NCBI GenBank assembly: GCA_021732845.1
Contig: JAKFUF010000152.1
Location: 1-46,714, forward strand
Source: Planctomycetaceae bacterium
Lineage (GTDB): Bacteria > Planctomycetota > Planctomycetia > Planctomycetales > Planctomycetaceae
DNA length: 46,714 nt
Direction: 5' to 3'
Positions 14,495-25,697 of the stretch are shown here, in pieces; the stretch's first letter is position 1, and each line of letters begins with the position of its first letter. A program made the position numbers and the translations under genes. The notes below the pieces were generated by a model. It saw nothing but the letters and a program-made list of their open reading frames with translations. It ran no database searches and had not been told where the DNA came from.

Positions 14495-16408
14495 CTACTT
14501 GTTTCGCCCTGTCGCCAGGTCGTACGCTGCCTTTTGAATGCGGGCCTGCCGGTCGGCGAGCCCTCTGAGCTGGTCCAGCACGGCCGGGTCCTGGGCCTGT
14601 TCACCGGGAAACATCCGCGCCAGCCGCCGTGTGCGGTTGTTGACGCGGTACTGGAGTGAACGCAGCACCTTCAGTTCCGCTAGTTTGTCGACCAGACCCG
14701 GTTCCTGCTCCTCACCCTGCTGCTGTTGTTGCTGAGGGTCTTTTTTCTTTTCTTCCTTCTTCTCGATTTCCTTTTGCAGCGCCTCGACCATTTCTTCGAG
14801 GGCGTTGATGATGTCCTTTTCGATGACCTGGGTCAGTTCGCCTGTGTCAGGATAGACCTTGCGGGTGTCATCCGGTTGCCGTCCGAGGAATTGTACGACT
14901 TGGAGCATGTCCTCGCGGATTTGTTCTGCGGCTTCCGGGAAAGCCACGGCTGAACCCTCTTCGCGCAGAATGATCAGCGTGCGGTCCATTTCAAGGACGA
15001 TCTCGTCTTCCTTCCGCGACAACTCGTGCGCCTTGGAGTAGTGGACGGTCGTCCGTTCCTTGGGGGGCGTGCGGTCGATGCGGCGCGTGTCATCGTACAC
15101 CTGCAACTGCAGGGTGAGCATGCTTTGGAAGCGGGCTTCAAGAGCCTGGAGTGTCCGCAGGAGTTCTTCCTCCCGCAACTGCCGCAGGATCTCCTCCAGT
15201 TTCTCCTTCGCCTTCTGCAGCTCCTTGACCGCGGCATCCTGATGGTCGGACGCGGGATCGTGGGCCTTTTTCTTCAGCTTTTCGATCGCCTTTTCCATCT
15301 CCTCCTTAGCCTTCTTCAGTTCTTCGCGGCCGGGAGTTTTCTTTTGGTCCTGAGGAGGGGGACTGTCTCCCTCTTTCGACTCGCCCTCTTTGGGCATCCC
15401 GTCCATCGGCATGCCATCTTGCGGCATGCCGTCCATGGGCTTGCCAGCTTTCGGCTCGCCTTCTTTTGGTTCACCAGGCTTTGGCTCACCCTCTTTGGGC
15501 ATTCCGTCTTGAGGATCACCAGGTTTGGCCTCTCCGTCCTTTGGCTTCTCTTCTGGCTTCTCACCATCGGGTTTCTTGCCTACAGGCTTGTCACCCTCTG
15601 GCTTCTTCCCGTCAGGACCCTTGTTCTCTTTGTCGGCGGGTGGCTGGCCCTCTTTGGGCTCGCCCGGTTTGGGCTCGCCCGGTTTGGGCTCGCCCGGTTT
15701 GGCGGCTCCCTCTTTAGGCTTGGACTCGGCTCCTTCCTTGGCGTCTTTGTCGGCATCATCCTTTTGGATCTGTTCGCTCAGATCCTGCGCCTTGTCAGCA
15801 ATTTTCTTTTGTCGTCGCGCGAGAGCGTCCGCATCTTCTTTGCGCTCCGTGGCCGCGCGTGTGTCGCGTTCCTGGTTGATAATCTCATTCAGCTTCTTGA
15901 GATATGCTTCAATCCGCGCCTGCTCGGCCTTGTTTTTCTCCCGTTCGTCCTCGCTCATCAGCAGCTTGAGCAGCAGGTGCATGTCGGCGACAACCTCTTC
16001 CTGGCTGTCGAGGGCATCCTGCAGTTTGGAGTCGGAACGGAGCAGGGTCACGAGCTGGGTCAACTGCCCGGGGATCTGCTCGGCGTTGCTCTTGCCGATG
16101 GCTCGATTCAGCAGTTCCGCGCGTTCGGGATCTGTCTTTCGAATCGATTCGGCGATCTTGCGCATGGTTTCCACAAACCGTGCGTATTTTCTGAGCAACA
16201 GGTCCTGCGAGGAGGCCAGCGCCTGTGGCCGTGATTCAGCCGCCGGCCCACCGGGGGCAGCCTTAGCATCGCCTTCTGGTGCTGCGACTGCCGGCGTGGC
16301 TTCGGCTTTGGGGGCTGCAGGGCTCTCTTGAGCAACACCGGGAGAGGGGAGGCACCCGTAAAACAGGGCGACCAGAAGACTTGTGACGGCGAGACGCTGC
16401 AGCCGCAT
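14495..16408 (-). CDS. Exported coiled-coil protein with Lys/Pro/Glu/Gly repeats
   Basis: About 637 residues from the ATG at 16408: a signal peptide ([20 protein letters not shown], with a possible lipoprotein Cys), an Ala/Pro-rich linker, a helical region, then a low-complexity domain of KPGEPK and DGMPK-type repeats (about residues 230-370). Long charged coiled coils follow ([20 protein letters not shown] and [20 protein letters not shown]), and a QQQQQQ tract lies near the C-terminus. Three perfect 15-base DNA repeats encode part of the KPGEP run. It is probably periplasmic and partners the DUF4175-like membrane protein encoded upstream. A 207-bp gap separates it from that gene and may hold its own promoter. 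Function unknown. Confidence 0.78.
15656..15700. repeat. Three tandem 15-bp repeats inside the coiled-coil gene
   Basis: GGGCTCGCCCGGTTT occurs three times in a row at 15656-15670, 15671-15685 and 15686-15700. On the coding (minus) strand each encodes one KPGEP unit. Perfect identity suggests recent slippage expansion, so copy number may vary between strains. Confidence 0.9.
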
Positions 16409-16615
16409 GGAAATCCCCTTGAGAGAACAAGGCCACAGGTCGAACTGTAGCTCATTCCCGTTGTGTGTGTGCAATCTGCGTTAAGTCGGGCCTCGCTTCA
16501 TCTCGGACAATCTGCCGGGCGGAAATGTTCTCACAATTCTTTCTTTCGATCGAATCCCCAGGGCTTCCGCAGCAGTTTCTGTTCCTGACAACATATTTCA
16601 GGAAGTCGCCCGGAA

Positions 16616-19135
16616 TTAGTCTTGGAGCCCTTCGATGGCCTGCCGTTTCTTTTCCGCCTTCGTTTTGTCCCGCAATTCTTCCTGCTGCATGATGATTTCC
16701 CGCAACAGTTGAATCGCCTCGTTGTACGATTCCAGCTTCAGCATCTGGGCCAGCACCGATTCGAGGTGGGTGATGGTTGTATTGAAATTGTCGACTGTCT
16801 CATCCAGTTGTTGCGTGGACGGCTGCCGCGCTTCCAACCCCTGCTTCAGGGCAGTCAGCGCATTGTCCACTGTCTGGTAGTCCTTAGTATTCACGGAATT
16901 GAGCGGTTTGACAATCCCGTCATCCACGCGCTGCAACAGCGCCTTCACATCTGGGACGGCATTATTCTCCAATTCGTTCCGAATATCCCGAAACGCCTCT
17001 TCGACCGACTGCGTCTCGTTGCGGTTTTTGGCCACCTGCGAAACCGAGCGCTCGGCGATTGCCAGGAATTCCTCAAAGCTCTGACTCAGTGGTGCTTGTG
17101 GCGTTACCTCACCCGTCCCCGTGGGCACCGGAGCAGTCCGGGCCTTCTCAAACCGGGTGAATTCGAGCTGCAGATCGCGGCGCGTATTTTTCACCTCCGA
17201 GATGATCTGCTCCAACCGTTGCCGCAGGTTCAACTCGCGGGCGGCGATCTGTGCCAGCAGTTCTTCGTTGGTGACAATTTCAAAGGTGTACCGCTCCCCC
17301 TGGGACCGGTGGGGGCCCAGCAGTTCATTGGGATCGGGGGCGAACATGGGCAGCGAAAGACCCACAAGCGACAATGGGTCGGTGTGAATGACCGGCAATC
17401 CATCCGCGGCATCCGCCGCCGAGACTGCCAGCACGAGTTTTTGACCGATCATCAAATCGAGCGGAAGAATTTCGAATTTTTCGGAGAAGGCCATCTCCTT
17501 CCGCTGCTGGACATCTCCCACGAAGGGGCGGGTCTCGAAGTGTGATTCCGACTCCAGCTTGAATTCGAATCGTGGAGCCACGACTCCGTAGTCGTCAACA
17601 ATCATCCCTTGGACGGGAATCCGTGCCTGTCGGGTGATCGAATTGCCAATGCCCTTGAGTTCAGCCACGACGGTGGGGGGCGCATCGGGAATCGAGTTCA
17701 GATTGAAGCGGTTGGGTTCCGCGGTGACGATGTCATCCGTGTCATGCAGCAGAATTGCCACGGCCACGGTCGGCGGCAGATGCAAGGGCCAGGCAGGCGG
17801 AGCAGTCTTTTCGCGCATGGCCGCGGGCCGCGTGGTCAACACGCACGGAACCGCCAGTTCCCGCCCGTCTTTGCTCACGAGTGGTTTTTCGGAGGCCAGG
17901 TCGACCGGTTCGGCTTCAGGGGGAGAGCGAAATTTCACTCCGCCAGAGGAGGCCTCCAGCGTCCATAAATCGGTCTGCAACCGAAACCCTTGCAGGGGCT
18001 TGTTGGATTTCGCCCTCAGGATGAAGTCGGTTCCGGCCGGCAGAGCGACATCGCTGCTCTGCACAGGAATGAGTTCCCGGAGCATGGCATTCTTTTCGTC
18101 GCGGCTGTTCTTGTTGGTGTATTCCGGATAGAGACAGTCGAGCACGAGGCCATCGACTTTTGGCGGCCGGACCACCTGGACCGTCAGGGGTGTCCGCGAC
18201 GAATAGTCGCCTCCATAGAACCAGAGCCGTGCCGAACTGTGAACTCCCGGCAGCGTAAATTGGAACTTTCGGTCACCCAGCTTCGCCATGGTCGGGCGGT
18301 CGGCCCGGCCAGTTTCCGGGGAGTAATTGAACCACACCTGGGACGGGACCCGCCGGCCCTCTGGCACCTCGGCAATCAGCGTCAGGTTGGCCCCCTGCGG
18401 ATGCTTGTAGATGCCATCGCGAAATTCCATCATCCGCTCGTCGGGATCGGCCAGCACGTAGATCTTGAGATCCGTCTCGCGGGGCCAGAGTTCCTCCCGC
18501 AGCAGCACGTTGCGGCGGTACCACAGTTCCACGTCGCCCTGGGCATAGGCTGTCCACGCGCCAATCGTGAGCAGGAACATCCCAGCAATCATCACTGTCC
18601 GCAGCAGTGGCCGCAGATTGAAGACCGAGCTGAGCTTCAACTCCGGCAGCAACTGCGTGACCTGGTTGGCGGTCCGCTCCAACATGGAGGCCGTGAGCGG
18701 GGATTGTGCGGTTCGGCCGCTCATCTCGATGGTGGTGATCAGGCCATCATCGAGCCCCGGAAATTTGCGCTCCAGCACCAGCGCCAGTGACCGCAGATTG
18801 AAGTCCCGCATCAGGCGCATCAGCACAAACACGCTGACCAGCCCAAAGCAGGCCAGACCGGTCGCCAGCAGCACGCAGAACCGAATGAGCCGCGACAACT
18901 CGAGCCACCGGTCGAGCCCGAAGCTCAGCCAGAATGTGGCCCCCAAAACGGCCAGGACGAGCGCCGCCCCCTCGACGACGACATACGTGCGGACGAGCGC
19001 CCCCAGGCGCGACAGAATTCGCCGTGCCGCCAGGGGGGGCGCAGGGGGGGGCATGTCGACAGGCAATCTCAGGGGCGTGCGGGGCAGTTCGGGCATGGAA
19101 TTCACGCGAGTCTCAGAAGTTTTCGGGTCAGCCAT
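16616..19135 (-). CDS. DUF4175-like membrane protein
   Basis: About 839 residues from the ATG at 19135, chosen because GGGAG lies just upstream; this start overlaps the preceding VWA gene by 34 bases. A Pro-rich N-terminus is followed by two hydrophobic segments (YVVVEGAALVLAVLGATFWLSF and FCVLLATGLACFGLVSVFVLM), then a third near MIAGMFLLTIGAWTAY. The large remainder is periplasmic, beta-rich in the middle (PPKVDGLVLDCLYPEYTNK) and coiled-coil at the end (AARELNLRQRLEQIISEVKNTRR, ending AEKKRQAIEGLQD). This architecture fits DUF4175-like proteins of planctomycete VWA operons. An alternative start is the ATG at 19096. Probably a scaffold in an envelope complex with the VWA proteins; role inferred. 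Confidence 0.8.
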   Translation of the reverse strand: MADPKTSETRVNSMPELPRTPLRLPVDMPPPAPPLAARRILSRLGALVRTYVVVEGAALVLAVLGATFWLSFGLDRWLELSRLIRFCVLLATGLACFGLVSVFVLMRLMRDFNLRSLALVLERKFPGLDDGLITTIEMSGRTAQSPLTASMLERTANQVTQLLPELKLSSVFNLRPLLRTVMIAGMFLLTIGAWTAYAQGDVELWYRRNVLLREELWPRETDLKIYVLADPDERMMEFRDGIYKHPQGANLTLIAEVPEGRRVPSQVWFNYSPETGRADRPTMAKLGDRKFQFTLPGVHSSARLWFYGGDYSSRTPLTVQVVRPPKVDGLVLDCLYPEYTNKNSRDEKNAMLRELIPVQSSDVALPAGTDFILRAKSNKPLQGFRLQTDLWTLEASSGGVKFRSPPEAEPVDLASEKPLVSKDGRELAVPCVLTTRPAAMREKTAPPAWPLHLPPTVAVAILLHDTDDIVTAEPNRFNLNSIPDAPPTVVAELKGIGNSITRQARIPVQGMIVDDYGVVAPRFEFKLESESHFETRPFVGDVQQRKEMAFSEKFEILPLDLMIGQKLVLAVSAADAADGLPVIHTDPLSLVGLSLPMFAPDPNELLGPHRSQGERYTFEIVTNEELLAQIAARELNLRQRLEQIISEVKNTRRDLQLEFTRFEKARTAPVPTGTGEVTPQAPLSQSFEEFLAIAERSVSQVAKNRNETQSVEEAFRDIRNELENNAVPDVKALLQRVDDGIVKPLNSVNTKDYQTVDNALTALKQGLEARQPSTQQLDETVDNFNTTITHLESVLAQMLKLESYNEAIQLLREIIMQQEELRDKTKAEKKRQAIEGLQD

Positions 19136-21513
19136 TCGACTCCCAGCACCGCCACCAGGAAGTAGATGACCCAGGCCCGGTCCCACAAGGGCCGTGGCAT
19201 TTCGAACACGGTTGTCTGCCGCGAATGGTTGGTGAGTTCCTTGGGCAGGACTTCCGCCGCATTTTCCATGGTCACGTATTTGCCCCCCGAACCGCGGGCC
19301 AGCAGTTTCAGCAGCGACTCGTTTTGCTCCGGCCGGTCAAATTCTAGATTCGGCAGCTTGACGGAGAATGCTCCCGGCACGACATCGACCGAATCGGGAA
19401 CGGCGAGCTTAAGATTGTACAAACCCGAGACGCCCGCCACGAACTGGGCGGTGAAGTCGCCCGGCTTGAGCGGATCTGCCACCAGTTCCACGCGTGGTGT
19501 TTGCGGCCGGCCGCCGGGCAGGACAACTTCCAACGGAAGCTTGGCGGCGGCATACGGCTTGAGCTGCGTGTCCAGCACCCGCGCCCGCACCTGCACGGTG
19601 CTGCCGATGGGATACGACTTTCGGTCCAGGAGCAACAGGGCGCGGTTTGTGCCCCGCAGCAGGCGGCCCTGTCCAATTTCGCGGAGCATGCGGATCCACA
19701 GGCGGTCGTAGTAGTCTTCTTCAACCGACCGCAGCCGCCACAGTTCGGGACTGCCCAAATACAGCACGCGGCCCGAACCGTAGTATTGCGAGGCCAGCAG
19801 AATGGGGGGAGCCGAAGCGCGGGGATCGGCAAACCGCGCAAAAACGGTGGCTCCCGACTTCGCGGTCTTCGCCGGGTAGCATTTGAAGATCCCGGGGAAA
19901 TCCTGCCAACTGGTGGCCGACGACGCCGGATTGTCGCTCAACTGCAAAAATCCGGCCTCCAACCCATCACGGGTGAATTCCACGGGCCAAGGCTGGGCCT
20001 GGTCTTCATCGTCCGAAAACGAGGTGTCCAGCAGGACCGGGTAGAGATCGAACAGCTTTTGCAGCCGCTCGCGGTTCTCCGGGGCGACAGATGCCAGTTC
20101 CGGTGTGTACACATCCCCGCTGATCAGCATCAGGCCGCCGGCATGGGTGTAAACCCACTCGGCCAGCAATGTCGTTCCATTCTCGATTTCACCCTTCTCG
20201 CCACGCTTCGTCTCGCCCGCCACGAGATCCCAGTTGGGGTCGAAGGCGAGCACCGCGTCGTATTTGAACAGTTCGTCGCGCTGCGGGAAGCCGAAGAGAT
20301 ACGTCACCTCTTCTGATTCCTGGCTATAGCCGGGAACGGCTGTCTGCAGCCAGACATCGAGTTTGACCGACTTGTCGCGATACAGCAGATTCTTAACGAA
20401 CTGGAAGTCGCGCATGGGACCGCCGGCAATCACCAACACCCGCGTCGGATCTTCGACTACTTCGACTTTGACTGAGTCTTCGTTGTCTTCGGTGATGAGT
20501 TCGTTGACCGGCTGTTTGGGCTTCACGCGGATGCGAAACAGGCGTTTGACCGCCTCCGTGGGGATGTACTCAAATTCCACGGTGACCGGCACGCCATCCG
20601 CCAGAAGCTGCGTTTCCTTCTCCTGCAGCACTGTCATCTCGCCTTCTTCGCCCTCTTTTTTGGTCAGCAGCTCGACGACCAGCGGGCGTTGCGTCATCCC
20701 CTGCCCAGAGATATAGGCCGACAGCGTGAAACCGTCGCCAACATGGACGTGCGTCGGTGCCTGCACATCGACCAGTTGGATGTTGATGGGGGGGGCCGTG
20801 CTGCCCACGCCCAAGGGAAACAGCTTGACCTTTTCGGCCCGCGCGGCATCGACCACGAGGGCCGCGTCGATTCCCGCGTTATTGACCCCGTCCGTGAACA
20901 GGACCATTCCCGCCAGCGTCTCGCCATGTTCGCGGCGGATGACCTCCAGCACGGACTCGCCGATGCGGGTCTCCAAGCCACGGGGCTTCAGCAGTTCGGT
21001 GAAGTCTGGCGGCGATGCCGACTTCTTGTCGGTGGCACCCGGGATGACTGACGTCACCTTTTTTGCCAGTTCCTGCTGCTGCTGTGGCCTGGAGTCGAAC
21101 GTGTAGAGCGCCACGTTGTGAGTCTGCCGCAGCGTTTCAAGCAGCGGCGACTGCTTGAGGAACTGGGCGACCTGCTCGGCCCGTGGCGGCGCTGTGCCTT
21201 TCTTGTCGGCCAGTTCGTCGCGGATCCCCATCGAGACCGAAGTGTCCAGCAGGAACACGACACGCGAATCCAGTTCTGCCGTGCGCGATTCACGCTGCTG
21301 GGGCTGGAGGGCGACGACAAGCAGCACCAGCAAGGCCAGGCCACGCAATGCGGTGAGCCACGCCCGCCAACCCCAGTGGAGTTCGACGGAGTCGCGGCGG
21401 TACAGCCACCCGGCGAGCAACAGCAGCGCGGCAAATCCGCCGATCCAGGTCGACATCGACCAGCCCGACCTGCCGAACTCAATGCCGGCCCAGAACTGGG
21501 TCCACGCTGCCAT
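19102..21513 (-). CDS. VWA-domain membrane protein (second VWA gene of operon)
   Basis: 803 residues. Two N-terminal hydrophobic segments (STWIGGFAALLLLAGWLY, ALRGLALLVLLVVALQP) are followed by a von Willebrand A domain with a metal-ion site: VVFLLDTSVSMGIRDE (DxSxS) and, later, GMVLFTDGVNNAGIDA. After it come beta-sandwich segments and a glutamine-amidotransferase-like region (RVLVIAGGPMRDFQFVKN, GGLMLISGDVYTP), then another transmembrane helix at the C-terminus (WVIYFLVAVLGVEWLTRKLL). Such proteins accompany MoxR ATPases and BatA-like proteins. The neighbouring BatA-like gene lies upstream but is separated from this one by the nuclease pair. Likely membrane-anchored with the VWA domain in the periplasm or cytoplasm; orientation uncertain. 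Confidence 0.85.
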   Translation of the reverse strand: MAAWTQFWAGIEFGRSGWSMSTWIGGFAALLLLAGWLYRRDSVELHWGWRAWLTALRGLALLVLLVVALQPQQRESRTAELDSRVVFLLDTSVSMGIRDELADKKGTAPPRAEQVAQFLKQSPLLETLRQTHNVALYTFDSRPQQQQELAKKVTSVIPGATDKKSASPPDFTELLKPRGLETRIGESVLEVIRREHGETLAGMVLFTDGVNNAGIDAALVVDAARAEKVKLFPLGVGSTAPPINIQLVDVQAPTHVHVGDGFTLSAYISGQGMTQRPLVVELLTKKEGEEGEMTVLQEKETQLLADGVPVTVEFEYIPTEAVKRLFRIRVKPKQPVNELITEDNEDSVKVEVVEDPTRVLVIAGGPMRDFQFVKNLLYRDKSVKLDVWLQTAVPGYSQESEEVTYLFGFPQRDELFKYDAVLAFDPNWDLVAGETKRGEKGEIENGTTLLAEWVYTHAGGLMLISGDVYTPELASVAPENRERLQKLFDLYPVLLDTSFSDDEDQAQPWPVEFTRDGLEAGFLQLSDNPASSATSWQDFPGIFKCYPAKTAKSGATVFARFADPRASAPPILLASQYYGSGRVLYLGSPELWRLRSVEEDYYDRLWIRMLREIGQGRLLRGTNRALLLLDRKSYPIGSTVQVRARVLDTQLKPYAAAKLPLEVVLPGGRPQTPRVELVADPLKPGDFTAQFVAGVSGLYNLKLAVPDSVDVVPGAFSVKLPNLEFDRPEQNESLLKLLARGSGGKYVTMENAAEVLPKELTNHSRQTTVFEMPRPLWDRAWVIYFLVAVLGVEWLTRKLLRLA

Positions 21514-21577: not shown

Positions 21578-22132
21578 TCAATAAAAGCGTTTGCCGATTT
21601 CTGGCAGTTCGACCGTCAGGCAGAAATTCAGCGCCTCCCTCAGACGATCCACATCCTTCAAGGCCTTCAGCCGAGTGTACATCGACTTGACGCGCGTTTC
21701 CCACACACTGCGAATTGCCACGCGAAGGGCGTGGCGGCTCAATTCGGCACCCTCGTCGTACCCTTCCTTGAACGCACTCTGATAGGCCTCTTTTTGACCA
21801 TTTGCCGATCGGGAACCATTCCAAGAGTCTTCGAACCGTGATGCGGCCAGGGTGTCCAAATCTGCTTCGGAAATCTCTTTCCCCGCAGACGCCTCGTCGT
21901 CACTGGGATCGTCACTTTCGGGCAGCTTTTCAACGAATTCTTTGATTTCGGATAAGGGAGCAGTCAGCGACAACCTGAAGAGTTCATGAAGCCCCGCCAT
22001 ATCGTAGATGGAATACAGCTTCAACAGCAGAGATGCATCCACTGACTCAAAACGTGTTTCCCAAGTCGTGAGGATGACCGCATGCAACGTGTCTTTCTGC
22101 GCGGCCCGTTCAAATGTCGTCAGGTACTGCAC
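21578..22132 (-). CDS. Two-repeat helical partner of the Rpn-type nuclease (GTG start)
   Basis: 184 residues from a GTG at 22132, preceded by AAGGGGA; no ATG fits. I find an internal duplication: residues 17-66 and 136-183 align through WETR (24-27, 144-147), hydrophobic heptads, a D--xL-E pattern and a closing L-EI--F. The same pattern occurs at the C-terminus of the adjacent nuclease (its residues ~250-300: MLVSRFPTIS then LQSVDAKHLERL then LTELEAF). So this protein looks like two nuclease-type C-terminal domains joined by an acidic linker (DDPSDDEASAGKE), without a catalytic domain. It starts 40 bp after the nuclease stop. A role as an inhibitor or specificity factor of the nuclease is inferred. 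Similarity was judged by eye only. Confidence 0.7.
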   Translation of the reverse strand: MQYLTTFERAAQKDTLHAVILTTWETRFESVDASLLLKLYSIYDMAGLHELFRLSLTAPLSEIKEFVEKLPESDDPSDDEASAGKEISEADLDTLAASRFEDSWNGSRSANGQKEAYQSAFKEGYDEGAELSRHALRVAIRSVWETRVKSMYTRLKALKDVDRLREALNFCLTVELPEIGKRFY

Positions 22133-22172
22133 ACGAGTCCCCTTTCAACCTATGTGAATCTGCCGGCAGTTT

Positions 22173-23111
22173 TCAGGCATTCGCCTGGCCGATTTGGGCA
22201 TCCCCGTCGGGATTGAATGCTTCGAGTTCTGTGAGGGTAGCGTTCATTGCCAAGTCAGCCAGCCGTTCCAAGTGTTTGGCGTCCACCGATTGCAGGCGGT
22301 CGAGCAGGTCTTTCGAGATCGTGGGGAATCGGGAGACCAACATTTTTTGGATCCCCCAGCGCTGCCCCTTGGCAATACCGACACGTTCAAATGACGAGAT
22401 GTATGGCACTGGATATCCCTTTTCCAACTCGTTGATTTCCGCTGTCGACTGTTCTTCGAGTTCCGTCGGCAATTGCATCAACCAGTCGATGAACTGCAAC
22501 ACCGACAACCATTGCGGCCGCGTCCATTCAGGTTTGCTCAACCTTTTGAGCAGCCGCATTTTTTCCGTGTAACGCATCGCCGGTGCATTGTGGGTTGCCA
22601 GGGTTCCCAAATGTCCCAGCACCACTCTGGCGAACGGGTTCTTTGATCCCTCGAGTTCCTTTCGCTGGCTTTCGAAGTCGATGAGTTTGATGATGGGAAA
22701 CTGAAACAGCAGACGGCAGCCGAACTCCTCATACTGATAATGATTTGGACGCCAGCGGTTGGCTGTATCGCCGAGAATTGCCAGACTCACGGGATGTACC
22801 CGGTAATTATCGCGAATGCGGTAGTGCGAAGTAAACATCCGCTGGGCAAACTGTGGGTCGGGCTGGTTCTGAACCTCGACGTGGACCAGGAGCCACGTTT
22901 CCTGCCCATCCCGTCGCCAGACCTTGACGAGTTTGTCGGCGACCAACAATCCGACCTCCGCCTCGCGGGAGATACTCCTGAGTTCCTGTTCCAGCGACAC
23001 CACGCCTCGCGACCAGTCCACGGCCGCATGCAGCTCAGGAAAGAAAAACTCCAGGCACTCTTGAAATAGTCCGTCCAGCACCGCTTTCCACGGGTTGTCG
23101 AAATCGGTCAT
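22173..23111 (-). CDS. Rpn-type PD-(D/E)XK nuclease / putative transposase
   Basis: 312 residues. The N-terminal region matches the Rpn/DUF4351-associated nuclease type: LHAAVDWSRGVVSLEQEL, then EVGLLVADKLVKVW with Asp59, and LLVHVEVQNQ with Glu79 and Gln81, giving a D...ExQ catalytic set of the PD-(D/E)XK fold. HYRIRDNYRVHPVSLAIL is also typical. The C-terminal ~50 residues are a helical domain (MLVSRFPTISKDLLDRLQ, LTELEAF). Rpn proteins are DNA endonucleases implicated in recombination and phage defence. The ATG directly follows the TAA of the BatA-like gene (TAAATG), which implies translational coupling within the VWA operon. Such a cargo in this operon is unusual. The family call is good; the biological role is inference. 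Confidence 0.82.
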   Translation of the reverse strand: MTDFDNPWKAVLDGLFQECLEFFFPELHAAVDWSRGVVSLEQELRSISREAEVGLLVADKLVKVWRRDGQETWLLVHVEVQNQPDPQFAQRMFTSHYRIRDNYRVHPVSLAILGDTANRWRPNHYQYEEFGCRLLFQFPIIKLIDFESQRKELEGSKNPFARVVLGHLGTLATHNAPAMRYTEKMRLLKRLSKPEWTRPQWLSVLQFIDWLMQLPTELEEQSTAEINELEKGYPVPYISSFERVGIAKGQRWGIQKMLVSRFPTISKDLLDRLQSVDAKHLERLADLAMNATLTELEAFNPDGDAQIGQANA

Positions 23112-25697
23112 TTACGCCGCCACTGTTGCATGGCGTTTGGGGTGAAAGCTCAACCGCAGCGCCATCATCTGCTCGCAGACCAAAAAGATCAGCAGGCCGA
23201 TCAGCACGAGGTCATGCAGGTCTTGGCCGGCATGCTCTCCGTGAATCCAGTCGAACTGGTCGACCTCCTGAATCTTCAACGGCACCTCCGAGCCGACATT
23301 CTTCCGCAATTTGTCACTCGTGGTCAATTGCAGGCGGCTCTCGGCGGCCGGGACGTTATAGGCAAACCGCTGTGGCTCCTCCCCTCCGGACAGTGGATGC
23401 TTGACCAGCGTGTAAACCCCCGGCAGATCGGTGTCGGTGAATTCGTCGAGATATTGGGTGGAAGCCACGGGTGCGGGGCCGGCCCCGCCGCCCGCGTCAT
23501 CCGTTTTGGGTTTTCCGGCGAGTTCTGGAACGGCGGTCCGTGTCATCACATCGCCGTTGGGGAGACGAATTGAAACGTCGGTCTTGTAGACCGCCGGGTC
23601 GAGCCGTGCCCGGATGGCTTCGCCCACGATCCGGCGTTCGCGTGTGTGATCGCTGCGGGCGATGTGCTTTTCAATTTCCAACTGCAGGATGACATAGCTT
23701 GGAGAGGGGCTCTGGGTCCAGTTGTGCCACGTCGGTCCGGCCGACGTCAGGCAAGTCAACACGGTGCCCTTGCCGTAGCGATGCTCCAAAAACAAAGGAG
23801 CGCGGTTTCTCAGCGAGGCGATGACGCGGACGCCGTCATCAATCGCCCAGTCGGCCAACGGAGAAAAGTAACTGTTGATTTTCACCAAATTGACAAACGG
23901 GTTGTTGCGGCCCTCGAAGACGACGAACAGCGGATGCCGCGTGAATTGCAGGTCGGGCGCGGGGTTCGTCCCGTCATCAATGGGCAGTTGCGTCACCGCT
24001 CCCAGCCGCAACGGAAACAGCCCGTGCCGCGGCGAGGTGAATTCGTCGAATGTCAGGAGGCTGTCCTTGTCGCGGTCCAATTGACCAAACGCCTTCTGCA
24101 GCGCGGCTTGCTCTTGGGCAAGGGTTGCCGGCTGGCCGGAAGCAGCGGCCGTTCCAGCCTCGGCCGGCGGAACAGCCGGAACACCTTCGGTGGGCGGACC
24201 GACGGGCTCAACCCCCTGCCCCAGAAACTCGGCGGCATTGAGTTTTTCGTCGCGATTCAAATCGCGTTTCTTGAATGTCTCCGCCAGCGTGGCTTCCTCG
24301 CGCCCAACGGAAAATCCCGGCCGGTAAAGCTGGGCGTTGTACGCCGTGGCGTTGACGTTCGACCCCAGATACCAGCAGAGCCCACCACCGCCGGCGACGA
24401 AGGCCTCCAGAGCCCTCTGCGCATCGGGATGTACCGTGGCCAGGCTGACCATGTAGATCGCCTGATATTTTTCCAGCGAGTTACGGCGAAGGAAGTCCGG
24501 CGACTGGATGGTCGGCGAGAATCCCGTCGACCCGGGCGAAGGTTCCAGCGCATCGCTCAGCGACAGCGCGTCGCCGTGTTCGGGGTCGCCGTCAATAATC
24601 AACACCGGATTGACCTCCGGCACCTTGAAGGCGAGGAACCGCTGGTTGTCCGCCAGCAGCGAATCGGCGGGGAGACTGACACGGATCTCGTGGTTTCCCG
24701 CCTTGGCAAAGGCCCGGTCGAACTCCCGCGACATCTCCTGCCCCGGCTCGAGGTGCTGCATCGGAATCGTCACCGATTGCTGCTTGCCGTCTTCGAAAAT
24801 ATCCAGATCCACCCGCTCGACCACCTTGTCGCCGTAGTTGCGGACGGTCACCTTGAGCCTTACGGGGATGCCCGGAGCAGCCACTTCCACATTGCCGGTG
24901 AGTTCCGTGATCCCCAGATTCGCGTTCCCCTGGGGCACAACCCGCACCAGGTTGATGGCAAACCGCTTGTCGTTGAGCTGCTGCAGCGACTGTGACAGGG
25001 CACCCGGTGTTTCCCAGTCCTGGCGGCGGAAGTCGGAGATCAGATGGAAGTTTTGGGCCGCCCCCGGCTGGCCATCCAGCACGGAGGCCGCCTTTTGGAC
25101 TGCGGCCGCCATTTCCAGTGACCGATAGGAACAGGTCCAGTTGGACAGCATTCGGTCGAACTCTTTTTGAAAGCTCGGGTCCAGCGTCCGGAGCAGGAAC
25201 GCCGGCTTGTCGGGTTTCGACATGAACGCCAATGTCAGCGTCTGTGTCCCCGGCTGCCGCGCGCCTTCAGAGACGATTTTCTGCACGACATCCAGGGCGG
25301 CGGCGAAGGCCGTTTGCTTGCCGAGTTCGTCGCGCATCGAGCCACTGTCGTCGACAAGGACGACGTGGTGCGTCTTGTTCCCCTGAAACTGCGAAAGTGT
25401 GTCAGGATTCAAAAAGGGACGGGAAATCAGCGCGACAATGGCCAGCACCACCAGCATCCGCAGCAGCAGCAGCAACAACTGCTCCAGCAACAGCCGGCGC
25501 CGGTTGCGCTTCTGGCTGGCCAGCAGGAACTCCATCGCCGCGAACCGCACCCGCTTGAACTGCATGCGGTTGATGAAGTGGATGATCAGCGGGATCGACA
25601 CAAGCAATGTGGCTGGCAGCACGTACGGCCAGTTGAGGAAAAAGCCGCTCAGCCAGGCATTGGCACCGCCGAAAAAGCTCGTCAACCCGGACCACAT
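23112..25697 (-). CDS. BatA-like VWA protein with an EF-hand pair
   Basis: 861 residues. The N-terminus is the BatA type: YVLPATLLVSIPLIIHFINR, then RVRFAAMEFLLASQKRNRRR and the helix LLLEQLLLLLLRMLVVLAIVAL. A VWA domain follows with VVLVDDSGSMRDE (metal site) and later NFHLISDFRRQDWE. A glutamine-amidotransferase-like region (ALEAFVAGGGGLCWYLGSN) comes next. About residues 474-550 hold two EF-hand-like loops, DLNRDEKLNAAEF and DRDKDSLLTFDEF, separated by a Pro/Ala linker. A last transmembrane helix lies near LVLIGLLIFLVCEQ. EF-hands are not a usual part of BatA proteins, so calcium may regulate it. It lies 49 bp after the toroid gene and directly abuts the nuclease gene. Confidence 0.86.
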   Translation of the reverse strand: MWSGLTSFFGGANAWLSGFFLNWPYVLPATLLVSIPLIIHFINRMQFKRVRFAAMEFLLASQKRNRRRLLLEQLLLLLLRMLVVLAIVALISRPFLNPDTLSQFQGNKTHHVVLVDDSGSMRDELGKQTAFAAALDVVQKIVSEGARQPGTQTLTLAFMSKPDKPAFLLRTLDPSFQKEFDRMLSNWTCSYRSLEMAAAVQKAASVLDGQPGAAQNFHLISDFRRQDWETPGALSQSLQQLNDKRFAINLVRVVPQGNANLGITELTGNVEVAAPGIPVRLKVTVRNYGDKVVERVDLDIFEDGKQQSVTIPMQHLEPGQEMSREFDRAFAKAGNHEIRVSLPADSLLADNQRFLAFKVPEVNPVLIIDGDPEHGDALSLSDALEPSPGSTGFSPTIQSPDFLRRNSLEKYQAIYMVSLATVHPDAQRALEAFVAGGGGLCWYLGSNVNATAYNAQLYRPGFSVGREEATLAETFKKRDLNRDEKLNAAEFLGQGVEPVGPPTEGVPAVPPAEAGTAAASGQPATLAQEQAALQKAFGQLDRDKDSLLTFDEFTSPRHGLFPLRLGAVTQLPIDDGTNPAPDLQFTRHPLFVVFEGRNNPFVNLVKINSYFSPLADWAIDDGVRVIASLRNRAPLFLEHRYGKGTVLTCLTSAGPTWHNWTQSPSPSYVILQLEIEKHIARSDHTRERRIVGEAIRARLDPAVYKTDVSIRLPNGDVMTRTAVPELAGKPKTDDAGGGAGPAPVASTQYLDEFTDTDLPGVYTLVKHPLSGGEEPQRFAYNVPAAESRLQLTTSDKLRKNVGSEVPLKIQEVDQFDWIHGEHAGQDLHDLVLIGLLIFLVCEQMMALRLSFHPKRHATVAA

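Follow-up and report, generated by a model that had tools for sequence, protein, structure and literature searches.

A predicted Rpn-type nuclease gene followed by a gene for two copies of its C-terminal domain in a Planctomycetaceae bacterium

The nuclease gene and its neighbourhood

The window analysed here is a stretch of 46,714 nucleotides, in which two genes, P0001 and P0002, lie on the (-) strand between two longer neighbours (Table 1). The original prediction had described them as a nuclease of 312 residues and, 40 bp further downstream (gap 22133-22172), a protein of 184 residues with a GTG start, and all of these particulars are as it gave them. The ATG of P0001 abuts the TAA stop of the upstream gene, and no Shine-Dalgarno sequence is evident there by eye. 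The same gene row also holds a 659-aa ORF with a long repeat (14495-16474, (-) strand).

Table 1. Features of the P0001-P0002 locus, in window coordinates
Feature	Position	Strand	Basis
P0001, predicted Rpn-like PD-(D/E)XK nuclease, 312 aa	22173..23111	(-)	ORF call, alignment, AF2 model
P0001 CTD, residues 236-312, RpnS-like	22176..22406	(-)	profile and AF2 model
P0001 predicted internal start codon GTG, residue 235; upstream AAAAGGGA	22407..22409	(-)	family position ATG or GTG
P0002, partner, 184 aa, two CTD copies, GTG start, AAAGGGG upstream	21578..22132	(-)	
P0002 CTD copy 1 (r1), residues 1-69, begins at the internal-start motif	21926..22132	(-)	
P0002 acidic linker separating the two CTD copies	21797..21925	(-)	
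P0002 CTD copy 2 (r2), from about residue 113, without the PYxTSFER start motif	21581..21796	(-)	
Upstream neighbour, 861 aa, vWA/BatA-like (label by eye), conserved insertion flank	23112..25697	(-)	
Downstream neighbour, 803 aa, conserved insertion flank	19102..21513	(-)	

A search of 40 genomes recovered the upstream flank gene in 24 of 29 relatives' loci (one locus each; 5 not found). In 23 of those 24 the two flank BLAST matches end within 360 nt, the remaining one giving 792 nt, and in the window about 1.6 kb, the P0001-P0002 pair, stands between the two flank genes. Since the flank genes adjoin in relatives, the pair is one insertion holding both genes. Gain and loss of rpn genes as single clusters is reported by Zhong et al. 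(2023; PMC10327210).

Sequence and AF2 model (pLDDT 84) together predict that P0001 is a PD-(D/E)XK nuclease ending in a helical C-terminal domain (CTD). The D..ExQ set named in the original prediction (D59, E79 and Q81) is present; D59 and E79 are invariant in 16/16 aligned sequences and Q81 is not, two divergent members having ExE. Residues 1-147 of the model gave their best structural alignments with nucleases of the EndoMS/NucS type; the leading matches were EndoMS 5gkj/5gke (Z 7.5), 2vld (7.3) and Card1 (6.7), all of which we take to be PD-(D/E)XK enzymes. The top four rows of the match list are all of the nuclease kind, restriction-type nucleases come lower, and rows 5-7, proteins other than nucleases, match the model only in its helical stretch beyond residue 147. 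Because Z stays under 8, a middling value, the fold match is supportive and not proof; Foldseek with the same model gave a best E of 0.21, though nuclease entries recur. The model places a low-confidence linker at 236-238, followed by the helical CTD at 240-297 with helices at 240-248/250-261, 267-274, 278-290 and 293-297, the first helix being the shortest of its subfamily.

P0001 returned nothing above cut-off against Pfam, NCBIfam, PADLOC and PHROGs, and no relatives of it were found in named genomes. Family labels attach in part to its relatives: 12/16 hit the Rpn nuclease model TIGR01784 (COG5464), with E values up to 0.1 and 4.7e-4 at best, which P0001 itself does not, 9/16 and 6/16 match DUF4351 (PF14261) and Transposase_31 (PF04754), respectively, at E up to 0.1, and 5/16 match the PADLOC candidate C3a178 ('putative invertase'; best E 1.4e-6), which neither P0001 nor P0002 matches. 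Against DUF4351, P0001 reaches 14.9 bits (cut-off 25) and P0002 has no match at E up to 1.

A partner made of two C-terminal domains

P0002 consists of two copies of the P0001-type CTD and has no nuclease domain. For this comparison we used a CTD profile of nine rows that contained no window sequence, two of the nine being paralogues from the same genome. P0002 scored 47.7 bits, with main domains at 11-69 and 115-179 and a third piece of 3.3 bits at 2-13, and P0001 scored 31.2 bits. These scores lie far above the best of 10,000 shuffles (8.9 bits; 5,000 shuffles per protein), so the relation between P0002 and the CTD exceeds chance. The claim of two copies, for which the original prediction had proposed just such a profile check, is borne out by the match of both halves, and the motifs that it listed are in place: WETR at 24 and 144, and the closing LSEIKEF (60) and LPEIGKRF (176). 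A profile without P0002 rows also found the two halves separately in a search of 170 genomes (E = 1.5e-5 and 0.007).

The two copies are strongly diverged. They align with each other at a score of 59 (z 8.5; 16/47 aligned residues identical), and about two thirds of residues are changed both between the two and relative to the CTD with which each scores best. At the DNA level, likeness to the nuclease gene starts slightly upstream of the GTG (39 bp, 71.8%, 22107-22145 vs 22384-22422), a match that alone is weak (BLAST E = 1.2). In the structural model of P0002, copy 1 has the helix order of the nuclease CTD, with pLDDT block means of 89-97 over residues 11-70, and copy 2 is helical too, at lower confidence. 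The codon-position GC of P0002 is 0.573/0.411/0.616, compared with 0.604/0.374/0.681 for P0001.

Searches with P0002 against Pfam, NCBIfam, PADLOC and PHROGs gave nothing above cut-off. Among the matches listed, Foldseek and VIA-align with the model gave only generic helical proteins, the RpnAS structure 7TH0 not being one of them, and a PDB sequence search with the CTD and nuclease profiles gave E values of 0.11 or worse, 7TH0 again not being among the rows. No relatives of P0002 appeared in named genomes, viral contigs or plasmids, and no close relative in 170 family genomes. It is the only ORF with two full CTDs among 174 selected loci; the class-level CTD search sampled 397 genomes, and this uniqueness holds among the matches listed, beyond which other double-CTD ORFs may exist. 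One candidate second partner, L006 (G076), was rejected as a lone CTD fragment.

Internal starts, duplicated tails and coil length

The GTG of P0002 coincides, by sequence alignment, with the family's conserved internal start position. In the P0002 GTG column, 23 of 28 aligned relatives have Met, P0001 and its paralogue L002 have a Val encoded by GTG, and the remaining three, which form a divergent clade, have other Val codons in the column and a Met three residues later (two fragments and the duplicate copies were left out of this alignment). A larger start-site set held 60 distinct nuclease ORFs, of which a Met-or-Val rule placed 55; four were set aside (three of the divergent clade and one frame-broken) and one more of that clade was likewise unplaced. 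Of 44 representatives (up to 80% identity), 38 use ATG and 6 use GTG. Met or Val itself follows from the construction of the rule, but every one of the six Val codons is GTG, although GTG supplies 37% of the Val codons of these genes (probability 0.0026).

The context of the codon points the same way. Mean Shine-Dalgarno duplex energy at these sites is -7.76, as against -5.27 (sd 0.43) for synonymous recodings, a level reached by 0/300, and at least five matched Shine-Dalgarno bases are found at 75% of sites compared with 1.1% of 185 other in-frame ATGs. On the strength of these codon and Shine-Dalgarno statistics, which apply at the level of the family, translation in the P0001 family seems to have a second, internal start where the CTD begins. 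The internal site of P0001 taken alone is no stronger than its synonymous null (dG -5.1 vs -5.5, p 0.63; match length p 1.00). Free CTD copies of the P0001 subfamily (L072, L155, L157 and L158) have a Shine-Dalgarno-like start at the same site, with open frames that extend 8 to 82 codons upstream of it. In E. coli the antitoxin RpnS begins at such an internal start inside rpn genes, and Zhong et al. (2023; PMC10327210) report the start for five E. coli rpn genes and for one C. difficile rpn gene expressed in E. coli.

Nuclease genes followed by separate CTD genes also occur elsewhere. Our count took every CTD-bearing ORF of at least 250 aa that has a shorter CTD ORF behind it in the same orientation. 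It came to 12 distinct loci, the window among them, spread over 10 genomes; two of the others (on contigs C79 and C12) are in the genome of the window. The loci were selected for short CTD ORFs, so these counts are not a rate. The idea that the two-gene arrangement is peculiar to the window was rejected on the other 11. At 8 of these a nuclease domain was matched in the long ORF (E up to 1e-3, or Pfam Transposase_31); the long ORF of L071 has a weak match (E 0.031), and those of L068 and L171 have none. Protein identity between free copy and duplicated tail exceeds 80% at 7/11, is 61-69% at three and is 35% at L068. DNA duplications of the tail, at 77-88%, were found in five of seven loci tested (L064, L067, L070, L071 and L072), with none at L069, which lies outside the 12, and none of the tail at L068.

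Three of these loci deserve separate mention. L064 (1854-2798, G000:C79) and L067 (1159-2135, G000:C12) each hold a Transposase_31-type nuclease and a free CTD in the same genome as the window, and with 83-88% DNA identity between tail and copy they are recent 3'-end duplications. At L171 (310-2122, G239:C336) two separate CTD ORFs stand behind one long CTD-bearing ORF, a layout that is a plausible forerunner of a double-CTD gene.

Wide occurrence of the partner without the nuclease, which the original prediction had named as evidence against it, was not seen for the double-CTD protein, but single orphan CTD ORFs do exist. Two in this genome, L065 (1632-1967, C52, 112 aa) and L066 (1643-2053, C12, 137 aa), have no nuclease detected nearby; in the genomes studied, CTD ORFs of this orphan kind and fragments are a common sight, and frame-broken nucleases occur at L074, L075 and L101. 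Such ORFs, together with the lack of a close relative of P0002 in the 170 family genomes, would fit P0002 being what remains, without function or in decay, of a nuclease gene that was duplicated or truncated, its start region kept by chance. We consider this unlikely, given that the 184-codon frame has stayed intact despite divergence at about two thirds of residues, that the start is Shine-Dalgarno-like and the codon-position GC like that of P0001, and that both halves are predicted to be helical, copy 1 with high confidence. A single long nuclease with three CTDs, split by a sequencing error or a recent mutation, would for its part explain the place of P0002 right behind the nuclease gene and its start at a domain boundary. 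The two genes do not share a reading frame, however, P0001 ends in a stop codon of its own and a TGA stands five codons upstream of the P0002 GTG, so that one error would not join them; with independent two-gene loci existing besides, such a split is highly improbable and largely excluded.

Coil (first-helix) length varies in steps across the family. Measured by profile alignment, the start-to-RF length equals 26 plus a multiple of 4 in 35/41 placeable representatives. We compared 11 duplicate pairs, leaving out the poorly alignable L068 pair and counting L171 as two; coils differ in eight (free copies L155, L158, L064, L067, L072, L156, L171 and L070), by 4, 8, 8, 12, 12, 16, 20 and 28 residues, and are equal in three. 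The L156 pair has an extra five-residue gap outside the coil. Very long (QEGLQQGI/M)n coils were seen in the CTDs of L159 and L165 at contig starts (G378 C23 and C90). For Rpn proteins, Zhong et al. (2023; PMC10327210) describe four-residue steps in the helix, with repeat number governing pairing, and one extra repeat in E. coli RpnC that abolished inhibition. Because such a coil change stops inhibition in E. coli, many fresh free copies may be non-cognate. P0001 and r1 both measure 26 residues, the shortest length, which 3 of the other 40 placed representatives share. This equality fits cognate pairing; chance, at about 7%, is possible. The coil of r2 is longer than that of r1.

Relation to known Rpn systems and a possible function

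The original prediction stated that no description of this arrangement was known, a statement that does not survive comparison with the published E. coli pairs. Zhong et al. (2023; PMC10327210) report that RpnS may be encoded by a gene of its own: ypaA/rpnES lies downstream of rpnE, and rpnC is followed by rpnCS. With the loci described above, the layout is thus a known one. A nuclease gene followed by a separate CTD gene is common to these pairs and ours. The E. coli downstream genes are described as derived from the upstream gene and as a second copy of a single RpnS, whereas P0002 holds two strongly diverged CTDs in one chain and belongs to a distant Rpn subfamily. Compared with a free-standing RpnS of the YpaA type, P0002 agrees in lying downstream of an rpn gene and in starting at the internal-start position, and departs in having more than a single CTD. 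The intragenic RpnL/RpnS systems (RpnAS, PDB 7TH0) resemble the pair in three respects: the nuclease has a helical CTD, an internal start lies at the domain boundary, and coil indels among relatives come in multiples of four residues. Inhibition, the dimer and the L:S complex were demonstrated with E. coli proteins only. In the literature on Rpn nucleases, DUF4351 and intragenic antitoxins we recognised no double-domain RpnS, the text of Zhong et al., in part, being the only one examined in detail. What sets the pair apart is two CTDs in one protein, a putative tandem inhibitor that would be new.

Since P0002 starts at the position of the RpnS internal start, the best reading of it is a free-standing tandem RpnS. 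The pair would then probably be an Rpn-type nuclease toxin with a separately encoded, doubled antitoxin. A Shine-Dalgarno sequence at the internal start and at P0002, with none evident by eye at the ATG of P0001, would favour the inhibitor. The nuclease/inhibitor module of the original prediction is supported in part, through the two CTD copies, the internal-start coincidence and the joint insertion, and loses its novelty of layout.

How might such a module work? Rpn nucleases are a type known from phage defence; nuclease activity, binding, inhibition and a role in defence are all ascribed to the pair by analogy. P0001, the RpnL-like member, is predicted to be a PD-(D/E)XK DNase in which the helical CTD mediates pairing, and a short form of it is probably translated from the same gene, beginning at the internal GTG. 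P0002 may have arisen by 3'-end duplications of an rpn gene in which the internal start was kept as an ordinary gene start, the two CTD copies becoming one chain through the acidic linker. According to the literature on E. coli Rpn proteins, RpnS inhibits RpnL, and RpnAS is a dimer that enters a complex fitting a pair of RpnAL and a pair of RpnAS. P0002 would accordingly most likely act as a pre-joined RpnS dimer, docking on the nuclease CTDs and preventing cleavage until a cue from infection or stress sets the nuclease free.

Which nuclease each copy would recognise can be approached through kinship. Among 43 distinct CTDs, r1 scores best with P0001 (64), practically equal to L009 and L002 (63 each), and r2 with L002 (107, z 18.9; next rank 70; P0001 34, z 2.8). 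Contig C35 carries L002, a paralogue that shares 60% identity with P0001 across the nuclease domain. The CTDs of r1, r2, P0001 and L002 form one group, with support of 94/88 that falls short of the level at which the program marks a branch as trusted, and within the group L002 has a short branch and r2 and P0001 have long ones. AU tests rejected none of the pairings (p-AU for r2+L002 0.40, r1+P0001 0.11, r1+L002 0.41, r2+P0001 0.11 and r1+r2 0.51). The r2-L002 match may reflect pairing, or little change in L002.

The equal helix length and joint best score of r1 with P0001, taken with the best match of r2 to L002, suggest as a special case of the doubled antitoxin a two-headed one: copy 1 would fit P0001 and copy 2 the C35 paralogue, so that one protein would restrain two nucleases and couple their release. 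We hold this special case to be doubtful. P0002 might also serve another nuclease altogether, as an antidote that acts on the C35 paralogue or on related nucleases entering the cell. The far closer score of r2 with L002 than with any other CTD and its longer coil would suit such a role, as would the several CTD-bearing long ORFs in the genome, but the short branch of L002 means that this closeness may be retained ancestry, the AU tests reject no pairing, and r1 shares both its helix length and its insertion with P0001, which makes service to another nuclease alone quite unlikely.

If P0002 inhibits P0001 as a doubled antitoxin, it would be a natural single-chain RpnS dimer, which lets one ask how many CTDs are needed per nuclease, and the two-headed form, if true, would be a new wiring of several nucleases. 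The apparent conserved internal start would extend the genes-within-genes rule to a distant Rpn-like branch, and the repeated 3'-end duplications illustrate how an antitoxin encoded inside another gene can turn into an ordinary gene.
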